DNA from: Roseinatronobacter alkalisoli
Lineage (GTDB): Bacteria > Pseudomonadota > Alphaproteobacteria > Rhodobacterales > Rhodobacteraceae
NCBI RefSeq assembly: GCF_028745735.1
Contig: NZ_JAQZSM010000001.1
Span: forward strand, 372,001 to 436,000
Direction: 5' to 3'
DNA: 64,000 nt
Numbering within the stretch: position 1 is the stretch's first letter; each line of letters begins with the position of its first letter. Made by a program: the position numbers and the translations under genes. The notes beneath the pieces were generated by a model that had not been told where the DNA came from, searched no databases, and was given only the letters and a program-made list of their open reading frames with translations. Below are positions 1 through 12,454 of the stretch, in pieces.

Positions 1-572
1 CCTGCTTTCACGCGCAGGGCTGTGGTTTCACCCATTTGCAGAAAATCTGCGGCGTCCTTGGTTTCAAATGCGACAACACCCCCCAGCGCGCCGGACCCAT
101 ACAGCGCTGATGACGCCGGCCCGCGCAGGATTTCGACGCGCTTGTACAGTTCGGGTTCACCAAAGAACTGGCCCACCCGATACAACTCGCCGTATTTTTC
201 GACCCCATCCACTGTGACAATGATCCGGTTCTGGTCAGATGCGTCGCCGCCGATCCCGCGAATATTAAAGTGCTGCCCCGTCATCCGGTCGCCGCCCTGC
301 ACGGTCGCACCGGGCACGGTGCGCAGCAGATCGCCCGGTGTGGCGGCCTGTTCGCGGTCGATATCTTCCTGTTCCAGCGTGCTGACAGCTTGCGGCGTGT
401 CAATCGCCGTGCGCGCGCGGCCAAAACCCAGAATGATACGCCCCAGAAACGATCCGGGCGCGGCTGCCGGTTCCTGACTGGTCTGCGCATGTGCGGGCAA
501 TGACACGCCCATAAATGCCGGTATGGCAATAACGCTTAACAGGCGCCCGTAGCGCCTTGTTGTCTTGTCCAT
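1..572 (-). CDS. hmuR: TonB-dependent heme/iron receptor, N-terminal part (cut by window edge)
   Basis: The reading frame runs from an ATG at 572 to the left window edge with no stop, giving the first 190 residues. It opens with a signal peptide (hydrophobic segment about residues 11-25, cleavage likely after AHA). A TonB plug domain follows, with the usual order: the RAxTAIDTPQAVS stretch, LLRTVPG, FNIRGIGG, VDGVEKYGE, EILRGPASSALYGSGALGGVV. The beta-barrel lies outside the window. Its product would carry heme or another iron compound across the outer membrane using energy from TonB. It follows hmuSTUV on the same strand but after a 90-base gap with its own promoter. The heme assignment rests on those neighbours. 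Confidence 0.88.
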   Translation of the reverse strand, partial: MDKTTRRYGRLLSVIAIPAFMGVSLPAHAQTSQEPAAAPGSFLGRIILGFGRARTAIDTPQAVSTLEQEDIDREQAATPGDLLRTVPGATVQGGDRMTGQHFNIRGIGGDASDQNRIIVTVDGVEKYGELYRVGQFFGEPELYKRVEILRGPASSALYGSGALGGVVAFETKDAADFLQMGETTALRVKA

Positions 573-660: not shown

Positions 661-1449
661 TCAGGCAATTTCCGCAGCTTGTGGCAGAATAAATGCCTCG
701 CCCGCGCGGGGCAGGCTGGATACGCGAAGCGCGCAGCCATAGGCGTGCGACAGGTTGGTATCTGTCATCACATCGCGCACGCCGCCATGTGCCAGAACCT
801 GCCCGTCCAGCATCAGCGTGATGTCATCGGCGAACATCGCTGTCAGGTTCAGATCATGCATCACCGCGACCACACCGCCACCTGCGCGCGCGAAATCCCG
901 TGCCATTGTCATGACCTGCAATTGATGGCCAATGTCCAGCGCGGCAACCGGTTCGTCCAGAAACAGCCAGCGCGGCACCCCCGCGACGACCGGTTGCCAG
1001 ACCTGCAACAACACGCGGGCCAGTTGCGCGCGCGCCTGTTCCCCGCCGGACAGTTCCTGAAAATACCGCCCGCCATACCCCGCCAGCCCCACCCGTTCCA
1101 GCGCGCGGGTCGGCAAATGGGTGGCATCCGCGCGCAGGGCCGTTGCCCCCACCAGCCCCAGCCGCACGACTTCATGCACGGTAAAGGGAAAGGCAAGCTG
1201 GCTGGCCTGTGGCAGCACCGCGCGATATTCGGCCAGTGCCCATGCCGGTATCCTGCGCGTGTTCTGCCCGTTCAGGCAGACCGAACCGCTATGCGGCAGA
1301 TCGCCGGTGATGGCGCGCAGAAGCGTGGTTTTGCCGGACCCGTTGGGACCAACAATAACCGTCAGCCTGCCTGCCTGCGCCTGCAGGCTTGCGCCCCGCA
1401 GAATGGCTTTGCCGCCAAGTTCCACATCAATATCTTTTGCATCCAGCAT
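661..1449 (-). CDS. hmuV: Heme ABC transporter ATP-binding protein HmuV
   Basis: 262-residue ABC ATPase that would power heme import through HmuU. Walker A GPNGSGKT is at about residues 34-41, the signature LSGGEQ near 140, Walker B WLFLDEP with its catalytic Glu near 165-171, and an H-loop His in VMHDLN. The ATG at 1449 lies 6 bases past the hmuU stop (1455). An in-frame GTG three codons earlier overlaps that stop, and longer in-frame extensions run into hmuU. Fourth gene of hmuS-T-U-V, translationally coupled. Confidence 0.93.
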   Translation of the reverse strand: MLDAKDIDVELGGKAILRGASLQAQAGRLTVIVGPNGSGKTTLLRAITGDLPHSGSVCLNGQNTRRIPAWALAEYRAVLPQASQLAFPFTVHEVVRLGLVGATALRADATHLPTRALERVGLAGYGGRYFQELSGGEQARAQLARVLLQVWQPVVAGVPRWLFLDEPVAALDIGHQLQVMTMARDFARAGGGVVAVMHDLNLTAMFADDITLMLDGQVLAHGGVRDVMTDTNLSHAYGCALRVSSLPRAGEAFILPQAAEIA

Positions 1450-1454
1450 GGCGT

Positions 1455-2540
1455 TCACATATCCACAATGCCGCGGCGGCGCAGCAGTATCCACAGGAAA
1501 ACCGGCCCGCCCAGAACGGCCGTGACAATGCCGATCGGCAGTTCGGCAGGGGCGATGACAAGCCGTGCGATCATGTCAGCCATCAGCAACAGCCCGGCCC
1601 CCAGCAATGCGGCGGCGGGCAGCAGATACCGGTGGTCTGGTCCCATCGCCAACCTCAGCAGATGCGGCACCACGATTCCGATAAACCCAATCCCGCCGGA
1701 CACAGCGACGGCGGCCCCGGTCGCACCGGCAACGGTCAGGATGGCCAGGTTCTTCATGCGTTGTACCGGGATGCCCATATGCGATGCCGCGGCCTCGCCC
1801 AGGGCCAGTCCGTTCAGTGCGCGCGCCAGAACCGGCGCTGCAATCAGCGCCAGCACCATGATGGGCGCGGCGGCGGTCAGCTTGGCCCAGCTCGCGCCCG
1901 CTAGTGACCCCAGCCCCCAGAAGGTCAGGTCGCGCAATTGCTGGTCATCGGCGATATAGACCAGAATGCCCGTCAATGCGCCTGCCAGCGCGCCAAGCGC
2001 TATGCCTGCAAGCAGCATGGTTGCAACCGATGTGCGCCCGCGCCGCGTGGACACCCGGTACAGGATCAGCGTTGATGCCCAGCCCCCGAAGAACGCCGCC
2101 AGCGGTATCAAGTGCATACCCGTAAAGGCCAAAGCCGCGGGGGGCAGTAACCCGCCCAGCACAATCGCCAGCACCGCGCCCAGACCCGCCCCCGCACCCA
2201 CACCCACAATGCCGGGATCTGCCAGCGGGTTGCGGAACAACCCTTGCATGACCGCGCCGGACACTGCCAGCGATGCCCCGACCAGAAGGCCCGTCAACAG
2301 CCGCGGCAGGCGAATATCGAACAGCACCACCCGTTCACGCAGGCTCAGCGCTTCACCCGATGCCATTTTGCCCAGCACATCGGGCAAGGACACGCCCGCA
2401 GCCCCCACCCCCAACGACAGGACCGACACGGCCAGAACAAACACCGCCAGCGCGGCCATTGTGGCGCGTGCGCGTAAGGCCCGGTCCCCCGCGACGGCCA
2501 TTGCAGGGATGCGGCGGTTGGTGAACGGAAGTGCGACCAT
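1455..2540 (-). CDS. hmuU: Heme ABC transporter permease HmuU (FecCD family)
   Basis: 361-residue, strongly hydrophobic inner-membrane protein of the FecCD/BtuC family, with about ten membrane segments. The family motif region GxxMQGLFRNPLADPGIVGVGAGAG is partly visible around residues 95-120 (MQGLFRNPLADP). The start at 2540 is chosen because AGGGGG lies just in front of it and because hmuT stops five bases upstream; longer extensions overlap hmuT. It forms the channel for heme delivered by HmuT and is driven by HmuV. Confidence 0.92.
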   Translation of the reverse strand: MVALPFTNRRIPAMAVAGDRALRARATMAALAVFVLAVSVLSLGVGAAGVSLPDVLGKMASGEALSLRERVVLFDIRLPRLLTGLLVGASLAVSGAVMQGLFRNPLADPGIVGVGAGAGLGAVLAIVLGGLLPPAALAFTGMHLIPLAAFFGGWASTLILYRVSTRRGRTSVATMLLAGIALGALAGALTGILVYIADDQQLRDLTFWGLGSLAGASWAKLTAAAPIMVLALIAAPVLARALNGLALGEAAASHMGIPVQRMKNLAILTVAGATGAAVAVSGGIGFIGIVVPHLLRLAMGPDHRYLLPAAALLGAGLLLMADMIARLVIAPAELPIGIVTAVLGGPVFLWILLRRRGIVDM

Positions 2541-2544
2541 CCCC

Positions 2545-3387
2545 CTAGCCCCCCTTATGTGCCTGCGCAGGATAGATCGCGTCATGCAGATCGCGCGCCG
2601 CTTGTGCCGTGCGTGGGCCAAAACCCAGCAGGTAAATCCCGTCCATGCGAATGATCTGCCCGTTTTCTGCTGCGGGCGTCAGGCCAAGCGCGGGATGGCC
2701 GGTTATCTGATCATCGTTCAGGGCGTGGTCACCGTCGCGGTCCATCATCAGGATGACATCGGGGGCGGCGGCGGCAATCGCTTCGTCGCTCAGCAGCCGG
2801 TAGCCCGCGAAATCGTCAAAGGCATTGACGGCCCCGGCAAGGTGAATCATGGCCCCGGCGCCGGTGTCGCGGCCTGCGGCATTGATGCGCCCGCCTTGCG
2901 CGGACAGAACGAACATAACGCGCCGGGGGGCGTTGACCTGTGCGGTCTGATCCGCCAGTGCCGCGAAATCTGCGCGCAAATCAGTTATCAGCGCAGCGCC
3001 TTCGTCCTGCGCGTGCAGATGTTGCGCGACAAGTTCCACACGTTCCAGCACCCCCTCCATGCTTGGTGCTTCGGTTATCTGGACAAAGGGCACATCGGCG
3101 GATTGCATGATCTGGATCGTTTCCAGCGGTCCCGACCCTTCAGAGGCAAGGATCAGGTCGGGGTCCAGTTGCAGCAGTCCTTCGGGGGACAGCGCGCGCA
3201 TATAACCCACATCCGGCAGATCATTGACAGCGGGCGGGAAACTGGCGGTGGTGTCCCGGCCCACAAGGCGGTGTTCCTGCCCCAGCGCATAGACAATTTC
3301 GGCAAGGCCCCCGCCCACGACCACCACGCGGTCCTGTGCGGCGGCGGGGCTGACCAGCAACAGCGTTATCAGGCCAGCGCGGATCAT
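2545..3387 (-). CDS. hmuT: Periplasmic heme-binding protein HmuT
   Basis: 280-residue substrate-binding protein of the class III (BtuF/FhuD/HmuT) fold. It has a signal peptide (residues 1-17, cleavage after AAA) and the family segments GGGLAEIVYALG, GRDTTASFP and DVGYMRALSPEG. The Tyr in GYMRALS matches the position used for axial heme ligation in HmuT proteins. It hands heme from the outer-membrane receptor to HmuUV. Its ATG overlaps the stop of hmuS (ATGA at 3384-3387). Confidence 0.92.
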   Translation of the reverse strand: MIRAGLITLLLVSPAAAQDRVVVVGGGLAEIVYALGQEHRLVGRDTTASFPPAVNDLPDVGYMRALSPEGLLQLDPDLILASEGSGPLETIQIMQSADVPFVQITEAPSMEGVLERVELVAQHLHAQDEGAALITDLRADFAALADQTAQVNAPRRVMFVLSAQGGRINAAGRDTGAGAMIHLAGAVNAFDDFAGYRLLSDEAIAAAAPDVILMMDRDGDHALNDDQITGHPALGLTPAAENGQIIRMDGIYLLGFGPRTAQAARDLHDAIYPAQAHKGG

Positions 3388-4424
3388 GCTGCACCCCTTT
3401 GGGCGCGCGGCAGTTTTTCCAACAAGCCCTGAAACGCCACCGTGTCAGGGTCGCGTTTGCCGAAGATCTGCGTGATCAGCCCGCCTTCCGCGTCAAATGC
3501 CTCGACTGACCAGGCCATACCGTGGCGCGTGGGTTTGGACACCAGCCAGACCTCTGCCACGTGATCGGTGCGCAGATGCAGGTTGAAGCGCGGGTCCATG
3601 ACATTGATCCATGGTCCCATCGGTTTGACCTGTTCTATTTTGCCACCATGGATCTGGATGCAGCCCTGATTGCCCACAAAAATCATCAATGGCACAGCAT
3701 TCGTGGCCGCCAGATGCAGCAATTCGGTCACGGCACCCGGTTCAAGCGCCTGCGCCCATTGCGTCCCCACAATGCGGTAGGCACCAAGGCGGTTCATCTT
3801 CAGCCTGGACGCAAGGCGCAGGAACTGGTGCGTGTCGGTCATGGCCGCCCATTCGTGGCGCAGTTCTTCCAGCTTTTCAGGGCGTGATTTTGCCCCTTCA
3901 ACGGGGGCACGCGGGGTCAGCGTTACGCTGTCGGACTGATCAGGCAGGCGCAAATCTGCCACCAATGTATCAAATGCCGCGCGATCCGACCCATCGGTCA
4001 GGAACACCTTATGCACCGCATCGCCCGCCGCATCAAAAACCTGCACGGACGGGCGCGGCCCGTCGAGCTGCGCAAAACCATGGACCCAGTGGCGCGGGAA
4101 CATGCGCAGGTCAATCTCTGCACCCAGCACCATGGAAGCATGCGCGCCTGCGTGGTAATCCTCATATGTGCCTTTGCGTTCATGCACGACAGACTGGTTG
4201 CGCGTCAGCGCCATGACATCGCCCAGGCGCTGGATGGCGGGCATCAGCCGGTTCAGTGCGGGGTCAATGCGCACGACATGCGTGCCATCAACATGGGCGG
4301 CAACAAGTGCGGCTTCGGTCACACCGAAACTGTCGGCCAGATCGCGGGCGCGGGTTTTGGGGTGGTCCAGTCGTGCCTGCCGCAGATCAGCGGGCGTGGG
4401 GGTGGACACAAGGTCAAGCGTCAT
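3384..4424 (-). CDS. hmuS: Cytoplasmic heme-binding/degrading protein HmuS (HemS/ChuX family)
   Basis: 346 residues, the usual length of HemS/HmuS proteins, which consist of two similar halves that bind heme in the cytoplasm and help release its iron. The family stretches visible are the N-terminal helical region with DSFGVTEAALVAAH, then HERKGTYEDYHAGAHASMVLG and DLRMFPRHWVHGF in the first half, and VGNQGCIQIHGG in the second. The start at 4424 has AGGAG eight bases upstream. It is the first gene of the hmuSTUV operon and is divergent from the exbB-tonB operon. Confidence 0.9.
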   Translation of the reverse strand: MTLDLVSTPTPADLRQARLDHPKTRARDLADSFGVTEAALVAAHVDGTHVVRIDPALNRLMPAIQRLGDVMALTRNQSVVHERKGTYEDYHAGAHASMVLGAEIDLRMFPRHWVHGFAQLDGPRPSVQVFDAAGDAVHKVFLTDGSDRAAFDTLVADLRLPDQSDSVTLTPRAPVEGAKSRPEKLEELRHEWAAMTDTHQFLRLASRLKMNRLGAYRIVGTQWAQALEPGAVTELLHLAATNAVPLMIFVGNQGCIQIHGGKIEQVKPMGPWINVMDPRFNLHLRTDHVAEVWLVSKPTRHGMAWSVEAFDAEGGLITQIFGKRDPDTVAFQGLLEKLPRAQRGAA

Positions 4425-4555: not shown

Positions 4556-4624
4556 GCAAATTCCGCGCCGCCAGCCAATGCGCCAGCCCTTTCCCGTAAC
4601 ACCTGTGTCATGAAAGGCCGCGAC

Positions 4625-5038
4625 ATGCGCGTTCTGCCTGTTTTCCATGCGTTTTCCGTATCTTTGGGGCTGGCGCTGCCGGTGCAGGCCGCAGATCCCG
4701 CCCTGCATATCCGGCTGGATCAGGCGACCCCGTTGCAGAATGACTGCCAGATGGTCTTTGTGCTGGAAAACCGCATGGGGACTGGCATTGACAGCCTGCA
4801 GGCCGAAACCGTGCTGCTAAGCGCGGAAAACCGTGTCCTGCGCCTGAGTCTGCTGGATTTCCAGTCATTGCCCGAAAACGGCTTGCGCGTGCGCAGTTTC
4901 AACTTCGCGGGGCTGGCCTGTGACCAGATCGGGCGGGTGCTGTTCAACGCGGTTGGACCCTGCGCGCCGCAGGGCGCAGCGGAATGCGCTGCAGCGCTGC
5001 AAGTTGGAAGTGAAACTGCGATCGAGGTGGTGAAATGA
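4625..5038 (+). CDS. Small exported four-cysteine protein heading the exbB-exbD-exbD-tonB operon
   Basis: I do not recognise the family. The protein is 137 residues with a signal peptide (residues 1-23, cleavage after QAA). The mature part is about 115 residues and has four cysteines (C41, C99, C113, C121), enough for two disulfides in the periplasm. The ATG at 4625 is preferred over one 15 bases upstream because AAAGG lies seven bases before it. Its stop overlaps the exbB start (ATGA at 5035-5038), so it is translated with the TonB-complex genes. A periplasmic accessory to TonB-dependent heme uptake is an inference from position only. Confidence 0.75.
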   Translation: MRVLPVFHAFSVSLGLALPVQAADPALHIRLDQATPLQNDCQMVFVLENRMGTGIDSLQAETVLLSAENRVLRLSLLDFQSLPENGLRVRSFNFAGLACDQIGRVLFNAVGPCAPQGAAECAAALQVGSETAIEVVK

Positions 5039-5754
5039 CATTCTTCCCTACGGCAGATCTGGTGGACAGCATTCTGGATTTTCTGGCGCTGGGCGGCCCG
5101 GTGGTTGCCCTGTTGCTGGCAATGTCGCTGGTCGCGCTGGCGCTGATATTGCTGAAGCTCTGGCAATTTCAGCGTGCAGGTGTCGGTCATCATGGCGATA
5201 TCATCGCCGCACTTGACCTGATGGACAAGGGCGCGGCACAGCACGCCATGAAACGCGCAGCGCAAGGGCGCAATCATCTTGCACCGCTGACAGTGCTGGC
5301 GCTGACGGCCGTCACAACGCGCGATGCCGCGCCTGAAGCGCTGCGCGCACGCCTGACGGGACTGGCCGAAGCGGCGACAACGCGCCTGCAATCCGGGTTT
5401 CGGGCATTGGACAGCATTGCGCAGGTGGCCCCCCTTCTGGGGTTGTTCGGCACGGTTCTGGGCATGATTACAGCGTTTCAGTCCTTGCAGGACGCGGGTG
5501 CCGCAGTTGACCCGTCCGCGCTGGCGGGGGGGATCTGGGTGGCGTTGCTGACAACGGCGGTCGGGCTGGGTGTTGCCATGCCCACGGCGTTGGTGCTGAC
5601 ATGGTTTGAATCGCGCGTCATGCGCGAAGCGCAACTGGCGATGCAGATCATTGACGTGGCGCTTTGTGCAGGGTTGTCCGCGCAGGACTGCCCGCTGGGC
5701 AGGCCAGCGGCGGGCGCAGTCACTGACAGCACCAGAGTGGTGCAGAATGCCTGA
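5035..5754 (+). CDS. exbB: ExbB proton channel subunit (MotA/TolQ/ExbB family)
   Basis: 239-residue inner-membrane protein with three membrane segments (about 18-42, 125-148 and 165-190) and the MotA/TolQ/ExbB domain: LDSIAQVAPLLGLFGTVLGM followed by the WVALLTTAVGLGVAMPTAL helix. ExbB forms the pentameric ring that, with ExbD, uses the proton gradient to energise TonB. The Thr residues in GTVLGM and LLTTA correspond to the proton-path positions of the family. It overlaps the genes on both sides. Confidence 0.92.
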   Translation: MTFFPTADLVDSILDFLALGGPVVALLLAMSLVALALILLKLWQFQRAGVGHHGDIIAALDLMDKGAAQHAMKRAAQGRNHLAPLTVLALTAVTTRDAAPEALRARLTGLAEAATTRLQSGFRALDSIAQVAPLLGLFGTVLGMITAFQSLQDAGAAVDPSALAGGIWVALLTTAVGLGVAMPTALVLTWFESRVMREAQLAMQIIDVALCAGLSAQDCPLGRPAAGAVTDSTRVVQNA

Positions 5755-6136
5755 CCGGTTGGATATTGCGATGCGCCGCAGGCGGTTGTCGATGACATCG
5801 CTGATTGACGTGATCTTTCTGTTGTTGCTGTTTTTCATGCTCAGTTCGACTTTCGCGCGACAGGGGGAATTGCCGCTTGATCTGGCGATGGCGGGGGCTG
5901 ACACCCCCCCTGCAACCCCGCCGCTGTTTTTGCAACTGCTGCCCGATGCGTTGCGCCTGAACAGTGTTGCGACCACGACGGACGACCTGCACGCCGCCCT
6001 TGACGATGCGGATGGCGGGTTGGTGCTGATTGCCATGGCAGACGGGGTTGATGCCCAGCGGCTGGCAGATATCCTGCATCTGATCCAGCGCCGGAACGGC
6101 TGGCGGATTGGCGTTATCGGGGCGCGCGGGTCATGA
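5747..6136 (+). CDS. exbD: ExbD-type stator/transducer subunit, first copy (with the conserved Asp)
   Basis: 129 residues. A short basic cytoplasmic tail is followed by one membrane helix (about residues 17-38) that starts TSLIDVIFLLLLFF and contains D21, the proton-carrying Asp of ExbD/TolR. A periplasmic domain of about 85 residues follows. The ATG at 5747 is chosen because it overlaps the end of exbB and gives the normal short N-terminus; longer in-frame starts lie inside exbB. It pairs with the second ExbD that starts four bases before its stop. Confidence 0.9.
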   Translation: MPDRLDIAMRRRRLSMTSLIDVIFLLLLFFMLSSTFARQGELPLDLAMAGADTPPATPPLFLQLLPDALRLNSVATTTDDLHAALDDADGGLVLIAMADGVDAQRLADILHLIQRRNGWRIGVIGARGS

Positions 6137-6519
6137 GGTGTGCGCTTTCCCTTGTGCCGCGCGCGCGACCTGAACCCACGATTGCGCTGATCAACATTGT
6201 TTTCCTGATGCTGGTGTTTTTCCTGATTGCGGGCAGTCTGGCACCACGCCCGGACCCTGACATAACCCTGATAAGCCTGTCGGACATTGCCACCGAACCC
6301 CCGCGCGATGCACTTTTGCTGCTGCCGGATGGGGGGCTGCGGCTGAACGGGCTGGATGTCGCCCTGGCCGATGCTGTGGCCCATTTCGCCGGGGAACAAC
6401 ATGTGCGCCTGTTGCCCGACCGGGCGGCCCCTGCGGCCAGGTTGATTGAAACCGCGCAGGCGTTGCGTGCGGGCGGGGCACAAAAACTGGTGATTGTCAC
6501 GCAAGAGGGGGTGAAATGA
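6133..6519 (+). CDS. ExbD-like subunit, second copy, with Asn in place of the proton-carrying Asp
   Basis: 128 residues with the same layout as the first ExbD: a short tail, one membrane helix (about 17-38) and a small periplasmic domain ending LVIVTQEGVK. Its helix reads IALINIVFLMLVFFL, so N21 (codon AAC) stands exactly where the first copy has D21. That residue is needed for proton flow in studied ExbD/TolR proteins, so this copy should not carry protons itself. It may form a heterodimer with the first copy inside the ExbB ring. It is coupled by ATGA overlaps to exbD upstream and tonB downstream. Confidence 0.87.
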   Translation: MRCALSLVPRARPEPTIALINIVFLMLVFFLIAGSLAPRPDPDITLISLSDIATEPPRDALLLLPDGGLRLNGLDVALADAVAHFAGEQHVRLLPDRAAPAARLIETAQALRAGGAQKLVIVTQEGVK

Positions 6520-7556
6520 CCGCTGCCGCCGTGTTCCGGGCCTGCCCAAAGGTGAATGGCTGCCCCTTTGTCACGACCCGCCATTTGCGCGCGCTGGACC
6601 TGCGCCCGAAGGCGCGCACCATCGCGCTGGCGCTGCTTGTATCCATGGGGTTGCATCTGGGGGCCGTGGCGGCATTTGGGCCGCAGGGGGCTGTTGTCAT
6701 GACCGAAGGCGGGGGCGAAGCGGCCCCGGCAGCCCTTGGCACCAGTTTCGAGGATTTCGCCATCGGCAGCAGTGAACCCGCGCCCATGACCGAGGCGCAG
6801 CTCCCGGATGCGGCGCAACCCACCACGCCCCCGCAGCAAACCGCCCCCGTAATGCCGGCTCAAAGCATGCCGCATGTGCCCGCGGCGCGCGTGCCAGACC
6901 AGATCATGCAGCCGGTTTTGACCGCGCAGACGCCTGAAGACGCGGTGTTGCCGCAGGTGGTGGACCCTGCCGTAATACCTGAAATCGTGCCGCCGTCGCT
7001 GTCTGAAAGCGCGCCCGCCCAACGCGCCGACACTATGGAAACCCATCGCCCCGCCCCTGTTGCGCCGGTAGAACAGGTGCGTGCGACCACAAGCCCCGAT
7101 ACCAGCCCCCGCCCGCCTGCGCGCCCGCCCGAACTGACAACGCCGCCATCCCCTGCGCCGCAGCAGGTTGCGGCCGCCCCTGCCGCCCCGCGCGGAAATG
7201 CAAGGCAAAACGCGCAGCGCGGCGCGCAACAAGGAACTGACGGGCAGGCCGCAAACACGGCCACTGCGCGCCCTGCTGCAACGCAGGCGGGCAATGCGGC
7301 TGTGTCCAGCTATCCGGGCGAGGTCATGCGCCGCATCCAGCGGGTGCGGCAGGTGCGCAGCCCTGCGCGCGGGCAGGTGGTCGTTGCCTTTGGCATCGCG
7401 GCGGATGGGGGGCTGGCATCAGCCAGTATTGCGCGCACATCGGGCAACGCGGGGCTGGATCAGGCGGCGCTGGACCATATCCGCCGCGCGGCTCCCTTTC
7501 CCGCACCGCCTGCGGGGGCACAGCAACAGTTCAATTTTGAATTCGTGGGGCGGTGA
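6516..7556 (+). CDS. tonB: TonB energy transducer
   Basis: 346 residues. A cytoplasmic tail of about 32 residues leads into one membrane helix (about 33-54) that contains the SxxxH motif as SMGLH, needed for coupling to ExbB-ExbD. A long Pro/Ala/Gln-rich periplasmic spacer (about 60-255) follows. The C-terminal TonB domain (about 265-346) has YPGEVMRRIQRV, a GQVVVAFGI strand and the ending FNFEFVGR. This domain binds the TonB box of outer-membrane receptors. Last gene of its operon; its product would serve the receptor at 1-572. Confidence 0.92.
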   Translation: MTAAAVFRACPKVNGCPFVTTRHLRALDLRPKARTIALALLVSMGLHLGAVAAFGPQGAVVMTEGGGEAAPAALGTSFEDFAIGSSEPAPMTEAQLPDAAQPTTPPQQTAPVMPAQSMPHVPAARVPDQIMQPVLTAQTPEDAVLPQVVDPAVIPEIVPPSLSESAPAQRADTMETHRPAPVAPVEQVRATTSPDTSPRPPARPPELTTPPSPAPQQVAAAPAAPRGNARQNAQRGAQQGTDGQAANTATARPAATQAGNAAVSSYPGEVMRRIQRVRQVRSPARGQVVVAFGIAADGGLASASIARTSGNAGLDQAALDHIRRAAPFPAPPAGAQQQFNFEFVGR

Positions 7557-7645: not shown

Positions 7646-10600
7646 TCAGGCCAAAAGGTTGTGCAGGTTATGGATATGCGCATCAGGGCAGGCCCGCTGC
7701 GCAATGTCGCATAGATGGGCATGGTGGGTCAGGTAGATCACCTGCCCCTTGCGCGCCATATCCCCCAGCAACCCGAAGGCCGCCGCAGCCCGCGCGTCGT
7801 CAAAACTTTCCATGATGTCATCAGCGATGAAAGGCACCATCGGGCGATTGCCTGCAAGTTCCAGATACCCGGCGATCCGCAGCGCCAGATAAAGCTGGAA
7901 ACCAGTGCCCTTGGACAAGGTGTCCACTGGTTTGGCCGCACCACGCGCTTCCTGCGCAATCAGCAATTCGCGCGTACCGTCCGGGCGGGTGGTCAGGCCG
8001 CTGTAGCGCCCGCAGGTCAGCGCCGCAAATGCACGGCCCGCGCGTTCCATCATGCTGGAACGATGCGTGTCGCGGTAGCGTCGCAATGCCTGTTCCACGG
8101 CCAGAATACCGGCTTGCCGTGCCAGATAGTCGTGCGCTTCGTCCTTGATCTGCAAGATCAGGGTCTGGCGTTCTTCTTCCAGTTGGGCGGCGGCGTCATC
8201 CAGTCCGGCGCTGTCCCGTTCCTTCTGCGCGGCGGCCAGTCGGGCATAGGCTTCGCGTTGCGCCTGCTCCTGTGCTTTCAGCGTGGCGGCAAGCGTGTCG
8301 CGTTCCACAGCAGTGGCCTGCGGGTCCAATGCCTGAAGGCGCGTGATTTCGGCCTGAATATCGTCGCAATGCAGGTGGCGTGCCAGTTCGGCCTGGGTTG
8401 CCTTCAGCCGAGTGCTGGCGTCATTCGCGCGGGTGATGGTGGCGATCTGCGCGGCGATCCGGTCCAGCGACTGCGTATCGAACTTCGCGCGCAGGGCTGC
8501 GGTTGCCTGATCAAGCGCCTGTCTGCGACCCATCAGCCCGTTCAGATCTGCGCGCGCCTTGTCGCGCGCGTCGGACAGGCGTTTGCGCCGGGCTTCCATA
8601 TCCTGTGCGGCGCGCAGCCTGTCGCGCAATTGCGGCCATAGCATCCGCAGGTCAGAATTGGATGGCATGCCAAGCTCATTCGCCAGCGCCGCCAGTTGGT
8701 CGCAGAACGCGCGTTCATCCTTGCGGATGCTGTCAATCCGGTGCGTCAGCTCGTGCAATGTGTTGCGCAGGGGCGCAAGCGTTTCCAGTGCCTTCAGTAT
8801 GGCGCGCACCTGCGGCACGGATGATGTGGGCGCGATCCATGTCTGCGCCAGTGTGCCCGTCCAGCGCGTCTGCCAGTCGGTGCGTGCAGTCTGGATCTGG
8901 TCCGCCGCGTTTTGCCTGCGCGTGACATCCCCCTGCGCGCGGGTCAGCGCAGCGTGGCGTTCGGCCAGCCGTGCGGCATTGGCGTTCAGCGCTTCGGCTT
9001 GTGCGAGCAGAAGGGCGTAATCCGCGCTTTCATCGGGGGTGTGCCCCATTGCCTGAATCGCGCGGGCCAGCATTTGCTGCGCTTTGCATAACTGGCCTCT
9101 ACATGTGTCCAGTATCGCCCGGGCGTGCTTTTCCTGCGCGCAATCCTGCAAGGCTTTGCTGCGCCGCGCCTGCCAGTCCAGAAGGTCGGCAAGGCTGCGC
9201 GTCGCGCCGTCCGGTGGTGCAATCCGTGCCCAAAGTGCCGCGACCTGTTCATGCAGACCGGCCAGCGCCGCAGCCACCTGTTTGCGGTGGCCCGTTGCCA
9301 GCGCCAGATCGGCCTGATGGCTGCGCAACTGTTCCAGCCGTTCGGCCATGCGTGCCGCTGCGATCATCTGCGCGGCCAGCCTGTCATGGGTGGCCATGGC
9401 GGCTGCGAATGCGGCTGCTGAATGCGCGTCCATCTGTTGACAATGGGCGGCCCAAAGCCGGTCGCGTGTGTCGCGTGCCGCGGTCATGTCCTGCGCTTCG
9501 GGCGGCTGGTCCGGGCCGATACCGGCCTGCGCGCGGGCCAGAAGTGCGTCCAGCCGCCGGATTTCGGCATCGGCATCGCGCAGGGTGCTTTCGGTGTCGG
9601 TCATGCGCGCTTGCAGCGCGCGCAGTGTGTCGGGGGCGGGCAGGTCGATCGCGTGCAGATCGTCCGGCACGCCCCGCCATGGCAACAGGTCTGCGATGGC
9701 ATGATCGCGGGCCACGCGTGCGCTTTCCCATGCGGTCTGCGCTTCGTTGGCGGCGCGCGAAGGGTCATTGGCGCGCAGATCGGGTAGCAGGGCCTGTAGC
9801 CGGGCCTGCGCCTGGATCCGGTCTTCAGACGGTGGGGGGGTGCTGTCGTTGCCTGTCAGGTCTGCAAGGGTTTCGTTGGCCTTTTCCAGTTCCTGCGCGG
9901 CGTCCCAGGCGCGGTGTGACAGTTCAGCGTCCTGCGTGATCAGCGCTGACAGGGCGTCGATAACCGGCGGGGCCAGCTGCGCGGCGTCCTGGGTTGCTGC
10001 ACCCGGCCCCAGTTCATCCAGCACCTGCGTTATCTGCGCCTGCACAATGTCGCGTTGTGACAGCCGTCTGGGCAGATCATCCTGTTCCTTGGCGATCGCG
10101 CCGAAACGCGCTTGCAGGCCGTCCAGATCCGGCACATGGCGCAGTGCGGTCTGGTCGGGGTCCAACCCGTCAAGCTGCTGTGTTGCGTCGTCAAGTGCGG
10201 CCTGCGCCTGTGGTATCAGCGCGGCCAGCCGGGTGTTTTCCTGCACCCAGCCGGGCAGACCGGCCACCCATTCCGGTGGCAGGGGCACGGGGGCGGGCAG
10301 ACCGGCCAGCAGGGACTTTTCGTCCTGAAACCGTTCCAGAACGGGCAGGGCCGCCAGATCGCGGGCATGGGCATCATGCAGGGTCTGTGTCTGTGCGCGT
10401 GCATTCAGCGCGTGCTGATAAGCGTCTTCTGCGGATTGCACGTCGTCGCATAGTCTGCGCCACCCGCTGACCTGAAGATCAACTGCCTTCCGCGCATCGA
10501 CAAGCTGTTTCAGGCGGTCCTTATGGGCGTGAAGCTGTGTTTTGCGGGCGCGGGGCCGGAACCATTCGTCATTCTGTGTGCGCAAATCCCGCAATCTGTC

Positions 10601-11089
10601 GCCCAGTTCGGCCAGCCCCGCCGTGGCCTGAAACAACAGCTGCCCCAGATCGCCCTCGCTGGCCAGAATGCTGTCGCCGCCCCTGACCAATGTGGCTTCA
10701 TCAAGGGAAAACATCGTGGTGTAGCTGCCGCGCTCCAGCCCGCCCAGAAGTGCGCCAAGCGTGGATTCGGCCACTGGCTGGTTGGTTGCGGCATCCAGCA
10801 ATGTGTTCACATTCCCCTTGATCCGCGCCAGCGCATGGGGGGTGCCATGCGCGTCGCGCAGCCGGGCCCGCACCCGCAGCGCGCGTTTTTCGTGCAGGAA
10901 GTCATACTGTGTCTGGTTCGGGAACCCGAACAAAAAATCCAGCCAAGCCGCCAGAAGCGTGGATTTTCCCGCTTCATTCGGGCCGAAAACAATATGCAGA
11001 TCAGGCGTGCCCTGCGCGGGCGCAGGCAGGGTCAATGTTGCGTCGGTGAAATGGCCATAAGCAGTCAGGTTCAGGCTGTCCAGACGCAT
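7646..11089 (-). CDS. yhaN: YhaN-type AAA ATPase, SMC/Rad50-like
   Basis: 1147 residues. An N-terminal ATPase half with Walker A GPNEAGKS (36-43) is followed by roughly 900 residues rich in Ala, Gln, Arg and Leu heptads (a long coiled coil). A C-terminal ATPase half has a signature-like LSKGTGFQLYLALRIA and Walker B FIADDIMESFDD (about 1086-1096). This is the SbcC/Rad50 plan. It partners the nuclease encoded immediately upstream; the stop and start overlap (TGATG at 11087-11091). In this family the pair is expected to process DNA ends, but its exact task is not well defined. Confidence 0.85.
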   Translation of the reverse strand: MRLDSLNLTAYGHFTDATLTLPAPAQGTPDLHIVFGPNEAGKSTLLAAWLDFLFGFPNQTQYDFLHEKRALRVRARLRDAHGTPHALARIKGNVNTLLDAATNQPVAESTLGALLGGLERGSYTTMFSLDEATLVRGGDSILASEGDLGQLLFQATAGLAELGDRLRDLRTQNDEWFRPRARKTQLHAHKDRLKQLVDARKAVDLQVSGWRRLCDDVQSAEDAYQHALNARAQTQTLHDAHARDLAALPVLERFQDEKSLLAGLPAPVPLPPEWVAGLPGWVQENTRLAALIPQAQAALDDATQQLDGLDPDQTALRHVPDLDGLQARFGAIAKEQDDLPRRLSQRDIVQAQITQVLDELGPGAATQDAAQLAPPVIDALSALITQDAELSHRAWDAAQELEKANETLADLTGNDSTPPPSEDRIQAQARLQALLPDLRANDPSRAANEAQTAWESARVARDHAIADLLPWRGVPDDLHAIDLPAPDTLRALQARMTDTESTLRDADAEIRRLDALLARAQAGIGPDQPPEAQDMTAARDTRDRLWAAHCQQMDAHSAAAFAAAMATHDRLAAQMIAAARMAERLEQLRSHQADLALATGHRKQVAAALAGLHEQVAALWARIAPPDGATRSLADLLDWQARRSKALQDCAQEKHARAILDTCRGQLCKAQQMLARAIQAMGHTPDESADYALLLAQAEALNANAARLAERHAALTRAQGDVTRRQNAADQIQTARTDWQTRWTGTLAQTWIAPTSSVPQVRAILKALETLAPLRNTLHELTHRIDSIRKDERAFCDQLAALANELGMPSNSDLRMLWPQLRDRLRAAQDMEARRKRLSDARDKARADLNGLMGRRQALDQATAALRAKFDTQSLDRIAAQIATITRANDASTRLKATQAELARHLHCDDIQAEITRLQALDPQATAVERDTLAATLKAQEQAQREAYARLAAAQKERDSAGLDDAAAQLEEERQTLILQIKDEAHDYLARQAGILAVEQALRRYRDTHRSSMMERAGRAFAALTCGRYSGLTTRPDGTRELLIAQEARGAAKPVDTLSKGTGFQLYLALRIAGYLELAGNRPMVPFIADDIMESFDDARAAAAFGLLGDMARKGQVIYLTHHAHLCDIAQRACPDAHIHNLHNLLA

Positions 11090-12309
11090 CAGCGCGTGTC
11101 CCCCAACCGGGCCAGAACCTGTGCGAGTCCTTCATCGATCACTGCGGGGTCAAGCTGGTCAAAGCCAGCGCGCAGGGCAGGTTCGGGGGGCAGGGCAGCC
11201 TGCAGGGTGGCGCGCATGTCGTCCAGAGCGGCGAGGAAGCTGTCGGATTGGCGGAATTCATCGTCGATCAGGGCGGCAAGTTGCGCAAGTTCACCCGAAA
11301 CGGATGTCTTGTTCCCCAGATCGAGGACCAGCTTTTCCACCCATGTCTGGCCCAGCCCGCGGGCAAGTTCCTGTGCCTCTGCCAGGGCAAGGTCGCGGTC
11401 GCGCAGCAGGCGCTGCGCAAGGGGGGTGGCCCCGGTCAGGCGCAGACGTGCCACCAGATGCGGCGCGCGGCGCTGTGTTTGTTCCAGCCCGGTGCGGATG
11501 GCGCCCAGCAGGTCGTGCCATTGATCAAGGCCCGTCACATCCACGCGGACCGGACAGAAGGACGCCAGCGCAACGCAGCGCTCCGCCAGATGCAGGGTGC
11601 CGTCATCATCCACCGTGACCAGCGTGACGGTCCCGCCATCCGCCTCGCCAATATCGCGGCCTTGCGGAATGCCCGGCATCACGACACAGGCCGCGCCCTC
11701 ATGGACCATGCGCTTGTGGATATGGCCCAGCGCCCAATAGGCGAACCCACTTGCCTGCAGATCGGACAGGGCGCAGGGGGCATAGGGGTCATGCCCCGGC
11801 GCACCGTTCAGCGATGTGTGCATCAGGCCGATATTGATGGCATCCGCGACAGGCGGGCGGTATTTCGGCAGCAGGCTTTCGGGGGCTTTGGGTTCACGGA
11901 AACTCAGCCCGTGCAGGGCAATGCGCAATGGTCCCTTGTCGATCATCTCGACTCCTGGGCGCCCTTCAAACAGATGCACGCAGGGCGGCAGGGTCAGTTC
12001 GCGGGTGATGCGGCTTTCGGCGTCATGGTTGCCGCGTATGATGAAAGCGCGGATGCCCGCATCATTCAGCCGCGCAAGTTCGGCAGACAGAAAGCGCGCG
12101 GTCTTCATGCTGGTCTGCGACCCGTCATACAGATCGCCCGAAATCAGCAGCGCATCGACCTGTTCGGACAGGCACAGATCAATGATATTTCGCAGGGCAG
12201 TGCGCGTGGCCCCCGCAATCAACCCGGCCAGATCCGGGTCGCGCAACGCGAGAGAGCGCAGCGGACTGTCCAGATGCAGATCAGCAGTGTGAATGAAGCG
12301 AAAACCCAT
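11089..12309 (-). CDS. yhaO: YhaO-type DNA repair exonuclease (metallophosphoesterase)
   Basis: 406-residue SbcD/Mre11-like calcineurin-fold phosphoesterase. All metal-binding motifs are visible: HTADLHLDS near residue 8, LLISGDLYDG, IRGNHDAE, GLMHTSL and ALGHIHK. The start at 12309 (MGFRFIHTADLHLD) puts the first motif at the normal distance from the N-terminus; the longer frame to 12450 runs into a dispersed repeat and has no family resemblance. It forms a two-gene unit with the YhaN-like ATPase. Confidence 0.88.
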   Translation of the reverse strand: MGFRFIHTADLHLDSPLRSLALRDPDLAGLIAGATRTALRNIIDLCLSEQVDALLISGDLYDGSQTSMKTARFLSAELARLNDAGIRAFIIRGNHDAESRITRELTLPPCVHLFEGRPGVEMIDKGPLRIALHGLSFREPKAPESLLPKYRPPVADAINIGLMHTSLNGAPGHDPYAPCALSDLQASGFAYWALGHIHKRMVHEGAACVVMPGIPQGRDIGEADGGTVTLVTVDDDGTLHLAERCVALASFCPVRVDVTGLDQWHDLLGAIRTGLEQTQRRAPHLVARLRLTGATPLAQRLLRDRDLALAEAQELARGLGQTWVEKLVLDLGNKTSVSGELAQLAALIDDEFRQSDSFLAALDDMRATLQAALPPEPALRAGFDQLDPAVIDEGLAQVLARLGDTR

Positions 12310-12454
12310 GGCGTGACACTGCCTTGCTTCGCGCAGGTGCGCAAGGGCGGGAACCCGGAGCATAGGGGGGCGGGGCAGGATCAGGGCAGGGTGTTTCGGG
12401 CCGTTCGCGGACGAAACTGACCTGAAGGGGACGTTGAGGCGCATTCCCAAAGGT

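Follow-up and report, generated by a model that had tools for sequence, protein, structure and literature searches.

Tandem exbD genes with an Asp/Asn pair at the transmembrane proton site in a Ton motor module beside a heme uptake cluster of Roseinatronobacter alkalisoli

We describe a Ton system with two adjacent exbD genes, of which the first has the transmembrane aspartate that is required for activity in studied ExbD and TolR proteins while the second has an asparagine in its place. The genes were found in a 64,000-nucleotide stretch of Roseinatronobacter alkalisoli DNA, which was analysed as a whole and is referred to as the window. The Asp/Asn pairing is not a local mutation; it is a rule that is kept across many families and at least two classes. 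The explanation that we consider best, and hold with somewhat more confidence than doubt, is a Ton motor in which two specialised ExbD chains, paired as an obligate heterodimer, would form the axle inside the ExbB pentamer.

The motor genes and the two exbD copies

Five genes on the plus strand overlap in series and encode a small protein, ExbB, the two ExbD copies and TonB; the hmuSTUV genes and a receptor gene lie on the minus strand. The exbB gene, the exbD pair and tonB thereby adjoin on one strand, which is the gene order of a Ton system (ExbB-ExbD-TonB). The features of this region of the window are as follows.

4610 to 5038, plus strand: small protein, first gene of the motor module, without a match in Pfam or NCBIfam and, as judged by eye, probably secreted
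5035 to 5754, plus strand: exbB (Pfam MotA_ExbB, 98.3 bits)
5747 to 6136, plus strand: exbD1, the Asp copy (Pfam ExbD, 52.3 bits), with Asp21 at 5807-5809
6133 to 6519, plus strand: exbD2, the Asn copy (Pfam ExbD, 29.0 bits), with Asn21 at 6193-6195 and Glu14 at 6172-6174
6516 to 7556, plus strand: tonB (Pfam TonB_2, 44.7 bits, and TonB_C, 34.9 bits; NCBIfam tonB_Cterm, 51.2 bits)
3384 to 4424, minus strand: hmuS, HemS/ChuX heme-handling protein (Pfam HemS, 268.1 bits, and ChuX_HutX, 182.8 bits)
2545 to 3387, minus strand: hmuT, periplasmic binding protein (Pfam Peripla_BP_2, 139.5 bits)
1455 to 2621, minus strand: hmuU, FecCD-type permease (Pfam FecCD, 309.7 bits)
661 to 1494, minus strand: hmuV, heme ABC transporter ATPase (NCBIfam PRK13548, 301.9 bits, cut-off 261)
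1 to 572, minus strand: N-terminal part of an hmuR-like TonB-dependent receptor, the gene of which extends further to the left, outside the window; start codon picked by eye

The two exbD genes overlap by 4 nucleotides and both products pass the cut-off of the Pfam ExbD family (PF02472, 25.4 bits). The helix of exbD1 reads TSLIDVIF, with Asp21 encoded by GAC, and that of exbD2 reads IALINIVF, with Asn21 encoded by AAC. When a profile of second copies was aligned to the solved E. coli ExbD (6tyi), the Asn fell on Asp25, the residue with which the Asp of exbD1 is also aligned, and both copies align with ExbD across the helix and the periplasmic domain. This confirms the starting point of an earlier sequence-only reading of the same DNA, according to which the second of two adjacent ExbD genes has Asn for the proton-carrying Asp.

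The AlphaFold model of exbD2 (pLDDT 87) has a single helix at residues 16-36 followed by an alpha/beta periplasmic domain. A Foldseek search with this model returned ExbD and TolR structures as its seven best matches, among them ExbD bound to pieces of TonB; 8vgc and one chain of 8p9r were matched with a TM score of 0.75 of the target and rmsd values of 1.9 and 1.6, and the E value was below 0.001 for the top match (8pek) only. The Asn copy is still an ExbD protein, with a periplasmic fold that is predicted to be kept. As judged from its sequence exbD2 is an ExbD homologue, but the way of working of the studied ExbD proteins cannot be assumed for it.

A tandem exbD in a Roseobacter heme operon is already in print: the hmu operons of Ruegeria sp. 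TM1040 comprise ten genes, namely hmuRSTUV, exbB, exbD1, a duplicate exbD1a, tonB and a hypothetical gene, and inactivating hmuR confirmed that it takes part in heme uptake (PMC5225302). The gene set is the same as here, including the tandem exbD. In the available part of that paper exbD1a is treated only as a duplicate, and nothing was seen there about which residue it has, how conserved it is or how it works. Likewise, an ExbD that regularly has Asn was not found described in a literature search that covered only few of the subscription journals.

Constancy of the Asp/Asn pair among relatives

A scan of 255 loci yielded 185 distinct tandem pairs, of which 177 were Asp-then-Asn and 8 were Asp/Asp; these numbers are not a frequency, since the queries were aimed mostly at Asn copies, and they describe constancy within the module and not how common the module is. 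One collection was made with a peptide pattern containing the Asn and several others with Asn-copy queries. Left out of the scan were L002, L004 and L117 (same place as L005) as well as L227 and L230, which are not ExbD loci, and 34 duplicates were dropped. All 36 distinct lone ExbD copies in the scan had Asp, and no Asn copy without a preceding Asp copy was found among the 255 loci.

The first 114 loci contained 113 pairs, all of them Asp then Asn, a count in which the window itself appears three times (L002, L004 and L005) and a second module of the same genome once. Weaker relatives from the same family were Asp/Asn in 20 of 20 cases, and places in other families of the host's class and in other classes of the phylum were Asp/Asn in 18 and Asp/Asp in 2 of 20 cases. 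Among the best 30 loci from 185 genomes of a second class there were 13 Asp/Asn pairs, one of them a place already in the collection, 17 lone Asp copies and no Asp/Asp pair.

We also ran a search that was not aimed at Asn, using the Pfam ExbD profile on 58 genomes, about one per family of the host's class, with the residues read from the DNA. Asp/Asn was found in 13 of 19 tandem pairs, in 10 families, and Asp/Asp in the other 6. The profile itself gave 18 of these pairs (12 Asp/Asn and 6 Asp/Asp); the 19th is a pair on contig C13 of the R. alkalisoli genome, the Asn copy of which lies below the threshold. The sequence-only reading had staked its interpretation on the second copies of homologous pairs not usually having Asp, and both kinds of search bear it out.

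The Asp/Asp pairs are of two kinds. Six belong to other types of operon, with the TonB match upstream of ExbB in four, in one of these on the opposite strand only (L216), and downstream in two. The remaining two, L145 and L150 (rows L192 and L191 of the tree below), are built like the D/N modules but have a second copy with Asp, and offer natural controls for the effect of the Asn. Since these second copies have Asp, the Asn is not indispensable in every lineage.

Tandem operons in Xanthomonas, Stenotrophomonas and Sphingobium likewise have two adjacent exbD genes, one exbB and one tonB (PMC3551730, PMC11002078, PMC8599685), but tonB comes first in these operons and last in the window. All three ExbD-like proteins of Sphingobium SYK-6 are reported to have Asp25. 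An Asp/Asp operon of the SYK-6 type has Asp in both copies and tonB upstream of exbB, and the window has neither feature.

A further dataset comprised 172 distinct pairs and 19 lone copies, after removal of L002, L004, L117 and duplicates; of other sequence sets, A1 contained 34 of 42 chosen second copies, A3 54 of 80 sequences and A4 35 of 80. In a tree of 166 second copies the key residue needs two changes, as against a minimum of 31 switches of the Asn codon between AAC and AAT. In conservation the Asn column ranks third in the second copy, and 8 of the 10 most conserved columns lie in the helix. The median dN/dS value was 0.14 for the Asp copy as well as for the Asn copy in 18 close pairs, which are those within the limits of the script and are not all independent, some loci being part of more than one pair. 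By this measure, purifying selection acts equally on the Asn copy and the Asp copy.

When a tree was built without the Asp/Asn column, most first copies and most second copies fell into old groups that are largely separate from each other and have subgroups that match, as far as 119 rows, a short search and many weak forks allow. Five Asn copies (L131, L133, L134, L139 and L141) fell outside the main second-copy group. The second copy of L150 fell inside the Asn group and that of L145 outside it, which suggests either a change to Asp or retention of an old state. By the constancy of the residue, the dN/dS values and the tree, the Asn copy is thus old, kept and used.

Specialised chains and proposed models of the axle

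The two copies also differ in front of the helix. Of 36 lone ExbD and TolR copies, 30 have an acidic residue (Asp or Glu) at positions -9 to -5 relative to the key Asp. In the D/N pairs such an acid was present in 172 of 177 Asn copies versus 2 of 177 Asp copies, and 171 pairs had it in the second copy only; five Asn copies were without it. The acid of the Asn copies is mostly a Glu at -7, in the window Glu14 of exbD2, seven residues before Asn21, as opposed to mostly -8 or -6 in the lone copies. The positions thus differ, and the two acids are presumably equivalent.

The pairs L145 and L150 have the acid in none of their two first copies and in both second copies; in the six other Asp/Asp pairs it was found in three first copies and in all six second copies. 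Since the same split is seen in L145 and L150, it is not tied to the Asn, and rather marks first and second copies as specialised. This split of the acids between the copies is new here. Specialisation of this kind favours, without proving, that the two chains work together.

The heterodimer axle draws on the Asp/Asn order of 177 of the 185 pairs in the mostly Asn-aimed collections, the Asp of all 36 lone copies, the failure to find an Asn copy lacking a preceding Asp copy, an ExbB match in front of the pair in all 164 distinct D/N modules, and the acid split. The constancy of the Asn despite the codon switches, the blanked tree, the dN/dS values, the ExbD fold of the exbD2 model and the Thr at both ExbB pore positions also speak for it. 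Against it stand the Asp in the second copies of L145 and L150, with the same acid split, and the five Asn copies without the acid, and co-inheritance of neighbours is no proof of contact. In these modules the exbD genes overlap or sit close to each other, which suits equal amounts of the two chains; the nearest start of the second gene lay 4 nucleotides inside the first in 60 of 164 modules, as counted by a script that chose the start nearest to the stop and is biased to small gaps.

The E. coli ExbBD-TonB system shares the ExbB, ExbD and TonB homologues and the pore Thr positions of ExbB with the module described here, but has one exbD and hence Asp on both axle chains, whereas here there are two genes with Asn on one. 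In published models the two axle Asp residues swap protonation at each 36-degree step (PMC12905483, PMC9389320). The transmembrane Asp is called absolutely required (PMC12905483), and the MotB variant D22N is said to imitate protonation (PMC9389320), which speaks for Asn as a stand-in for a protonated Asp. Because the models need both Asp residues, a one-Asp axle would have to work differently, or another group would have to substitute. The AglRQS gliding motor of Myxococcus similarly combines one ExbB/MotA-like with two ExbD/MotB-like subunits, for which the heterodimer question is left open, but both of these are predicted to have the conserved Asp (PMC9389320), in contrast to one Asp and one Asn here.

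In the proposed axle, chain 1 (exbD1) would carry the sole proton-accepting transmembrane Asp. Chain 2 (exbD2) would present Asn, which is neutral and resembles Asp in its protonated form, and would add an acid, lacking in chain 1, where the helix opens to the cytoplasm. Such an axle would have a single site open to protonation and deprotonation, so that a turn would take about five protons in five working strokes of 72 degrees, as compared with ten in strokes of 36 degrees. Alternatively, the gearing may be such that the Asn half-steps are passed without work, or another group may stand in for the second Asp. Through the TonB encoded next to the pair, the motor would pull on the one TonB-dependent receptor, which belongs to the hmu cluster, and would thereby drive heme uptake. 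A D/N heterodimer with a single proton site is plausible; its place in the pore, its stoichiometry, its gearing and heme as its substrate are what we infer from the genes. A broader proposal, to which we give somewhat less than an even chance, is that these modules represent a widespread class of 5:2 rotary motors with an obligate Asp/Asn axle, one proton site and about five protons per turn, which would break the two-Asp exchange rule and whose chains would have split the ancestral acids between them.

The sequence-only reading, which as a whole is partly supported, had also given the heterodimer a built-in direction. The sequence gives no information about direction, and the idea lacks support because in the rotary model the direction of rotation is set by that of proton flow (PMC9389320).

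The alternative that we take most seriously, although we consider it unlikely, is that two kinds of homodimer share one ExbB: Asp/Asp would be the motor that works, and Asn/Asn a proton-tight complex by which ExbB and TonB would be stored or braked. It accords with the alignment of both copies to ExbD over the helix and periplasmic domain, with the fold kept in the exbD2 model, and with operons elsewhere that have two exbD genes and one exbB (PMC3551730). It leaves unexplained, however, why only the second copy has the acid in 171 of 177 pairs and why no Asn copy without an Asp copy was found.

Less likely again is an Asn copy outside the pore, an accessory that would hold TonB or peptidoglycan by its periplasmic domain with the helix as an anchor. 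The predicted periplasmic fold of exbD2 does match ExbD-TonB D-box structures, and exbD2 of Xanthomonas is reported to be dispensable for iron uptake (PMC3551730), but a mere anchor has no need of a helix with most of the best conserved columns, the Asn ranking third. We find it improbable that the Asn copy acts as a gate in the axle, with a resting D/N state that is swapped for D/D on TonB loading: dissociation and re-association of the ExbD dimer is one published gating idea (PMC12905483), but there is no sign of exchange in the sequence and the closely coupled genes suggest fixed ratios. That the Asn copy is a decaying duplicate, as its weak Pfam score of 29.0 bits might suggest, is contradicted by the constancy of the residue over two classes and by a dN/dS value of about 0.14, and can hardly be correct.

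What gives the heterodimer axle its interest is that current models of ExbBD, TolQR and MotAB have two equivalent Asp residues and ten protons per turn, for which the D/N pair is seemingly a natural decisive mutant. It makes two questions testable, whether both sites must work and whether the two chains are equivalent, and two genetically distinct axle chains can be labelled separately.

Partners of the pair and its substrate

The ExbB protein of the window has Thr at the positions of E. coli Thr148 and Thr181, which we take to be the pore Thr residues in E. coli ExbB numbering, and Val at the Glu176 position. Both pore positions were Thr in 164 of 164 D/N modules, and the Glu176 position was Glu in 37 and another residue in 127. 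We considered loss of this Glu as a partner of the Asn and rejected it, since the loss does not track the Asn: 37 of the 164 modules keep Glu, and one of the two Asp/Asp modules of the same type has Val. A Trp or Tyr stands just before the Glu176 position in all 164 modules, and the motif GGI(W/Y) was found in all of these and in L145 and L150 and was absent from the six other Asp/Asp pairs. As a private mark of D/N modules the Trp/Tyr was nevertheless rejected, being present in 1 of 19 lone-copy loci and in several lone-copy loci of the second class.

A TonB match on the same strand was found downstream in 145 of the 164 modules, upstream in 4 and not within the stretch examined in 15. Four D/N modules (L057, L072, L108 and L110) show a variant gene order, with the TonB match upstream of the small gene and not downstream of exbD2. 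For the His of the TonB helix, a crude scan detected a hydrophobic segment with His in 121 of the 164 products encoded downstream; the misses are due to the scan, and we base no claim on it.

A relative of the small protein was encoded just upstream of the ExbB match in 80 of 80 loci (L035-L114), and the small protein was found upstream in 119 of 164 D/N modules, a count limited by short flanks; it is possibly a fifth part of the motor. Four Cys residues are invariant in 36 aligned relatives. The predicted fold is all-beta (pLDDT 91.8), and its best Foldseek match was E. coli IrmA (5ek5, E = 4.9e-5).

A Ton system requires a TonB-dependent receptor, and the gene for one reaches into the window. 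This gene, at the left end of the window and in the hmu cluster, is the one PF00593 match in the whole genome; its open reading frame of 701 amino acids (read in L230) matched the Pfam receptor barrel with 155.5 bits and the Plug domain with 87 bits. With a single receptor and hmuSTUV alongside, the motor therefore very likely powers heme uptake in this genome, as the sequence-only reading had held.

A motor for heme in general is not supported, since another contig of this genome carries a second D/N module and many other families also have the pair, the range of which exceeds heme. A tblastn match to any hmu gene of the window was found at only 12 of 80 loci with 3-kb flanks. Of four longer loci of the same type (L223-L226), three had all four hmu genes and L225 had none. 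Because the hmu linkage is sparse elsewhere, the case for heme rests on this genome and two Phaeobacter records. These are plasmids with the same cluster in the order receptor, small gene, exbB, exbD, exbD, tonB, again with Asp/Asn. In Phaeobacter inhibens, a marine species that can be grown, the module lies on a sequenced plasmid of strain P66.

The second module of the R. alkalisoli genome lies on the minus strand of contig C13 (L115:6695-10753). It includes a relative of the small protein (L115:10202-10753, minus strand), and its last gene, in the place of tonB, encodes 515 amino acids without a Pfam match, in a genome in which only one receptor was found. In the window, the minus strand at 7646-12450 carries two large open reading frames of 1147 and 453 amino acids, which by eye resemble an SMC/AAA-type ATPase and its nuclease partner.
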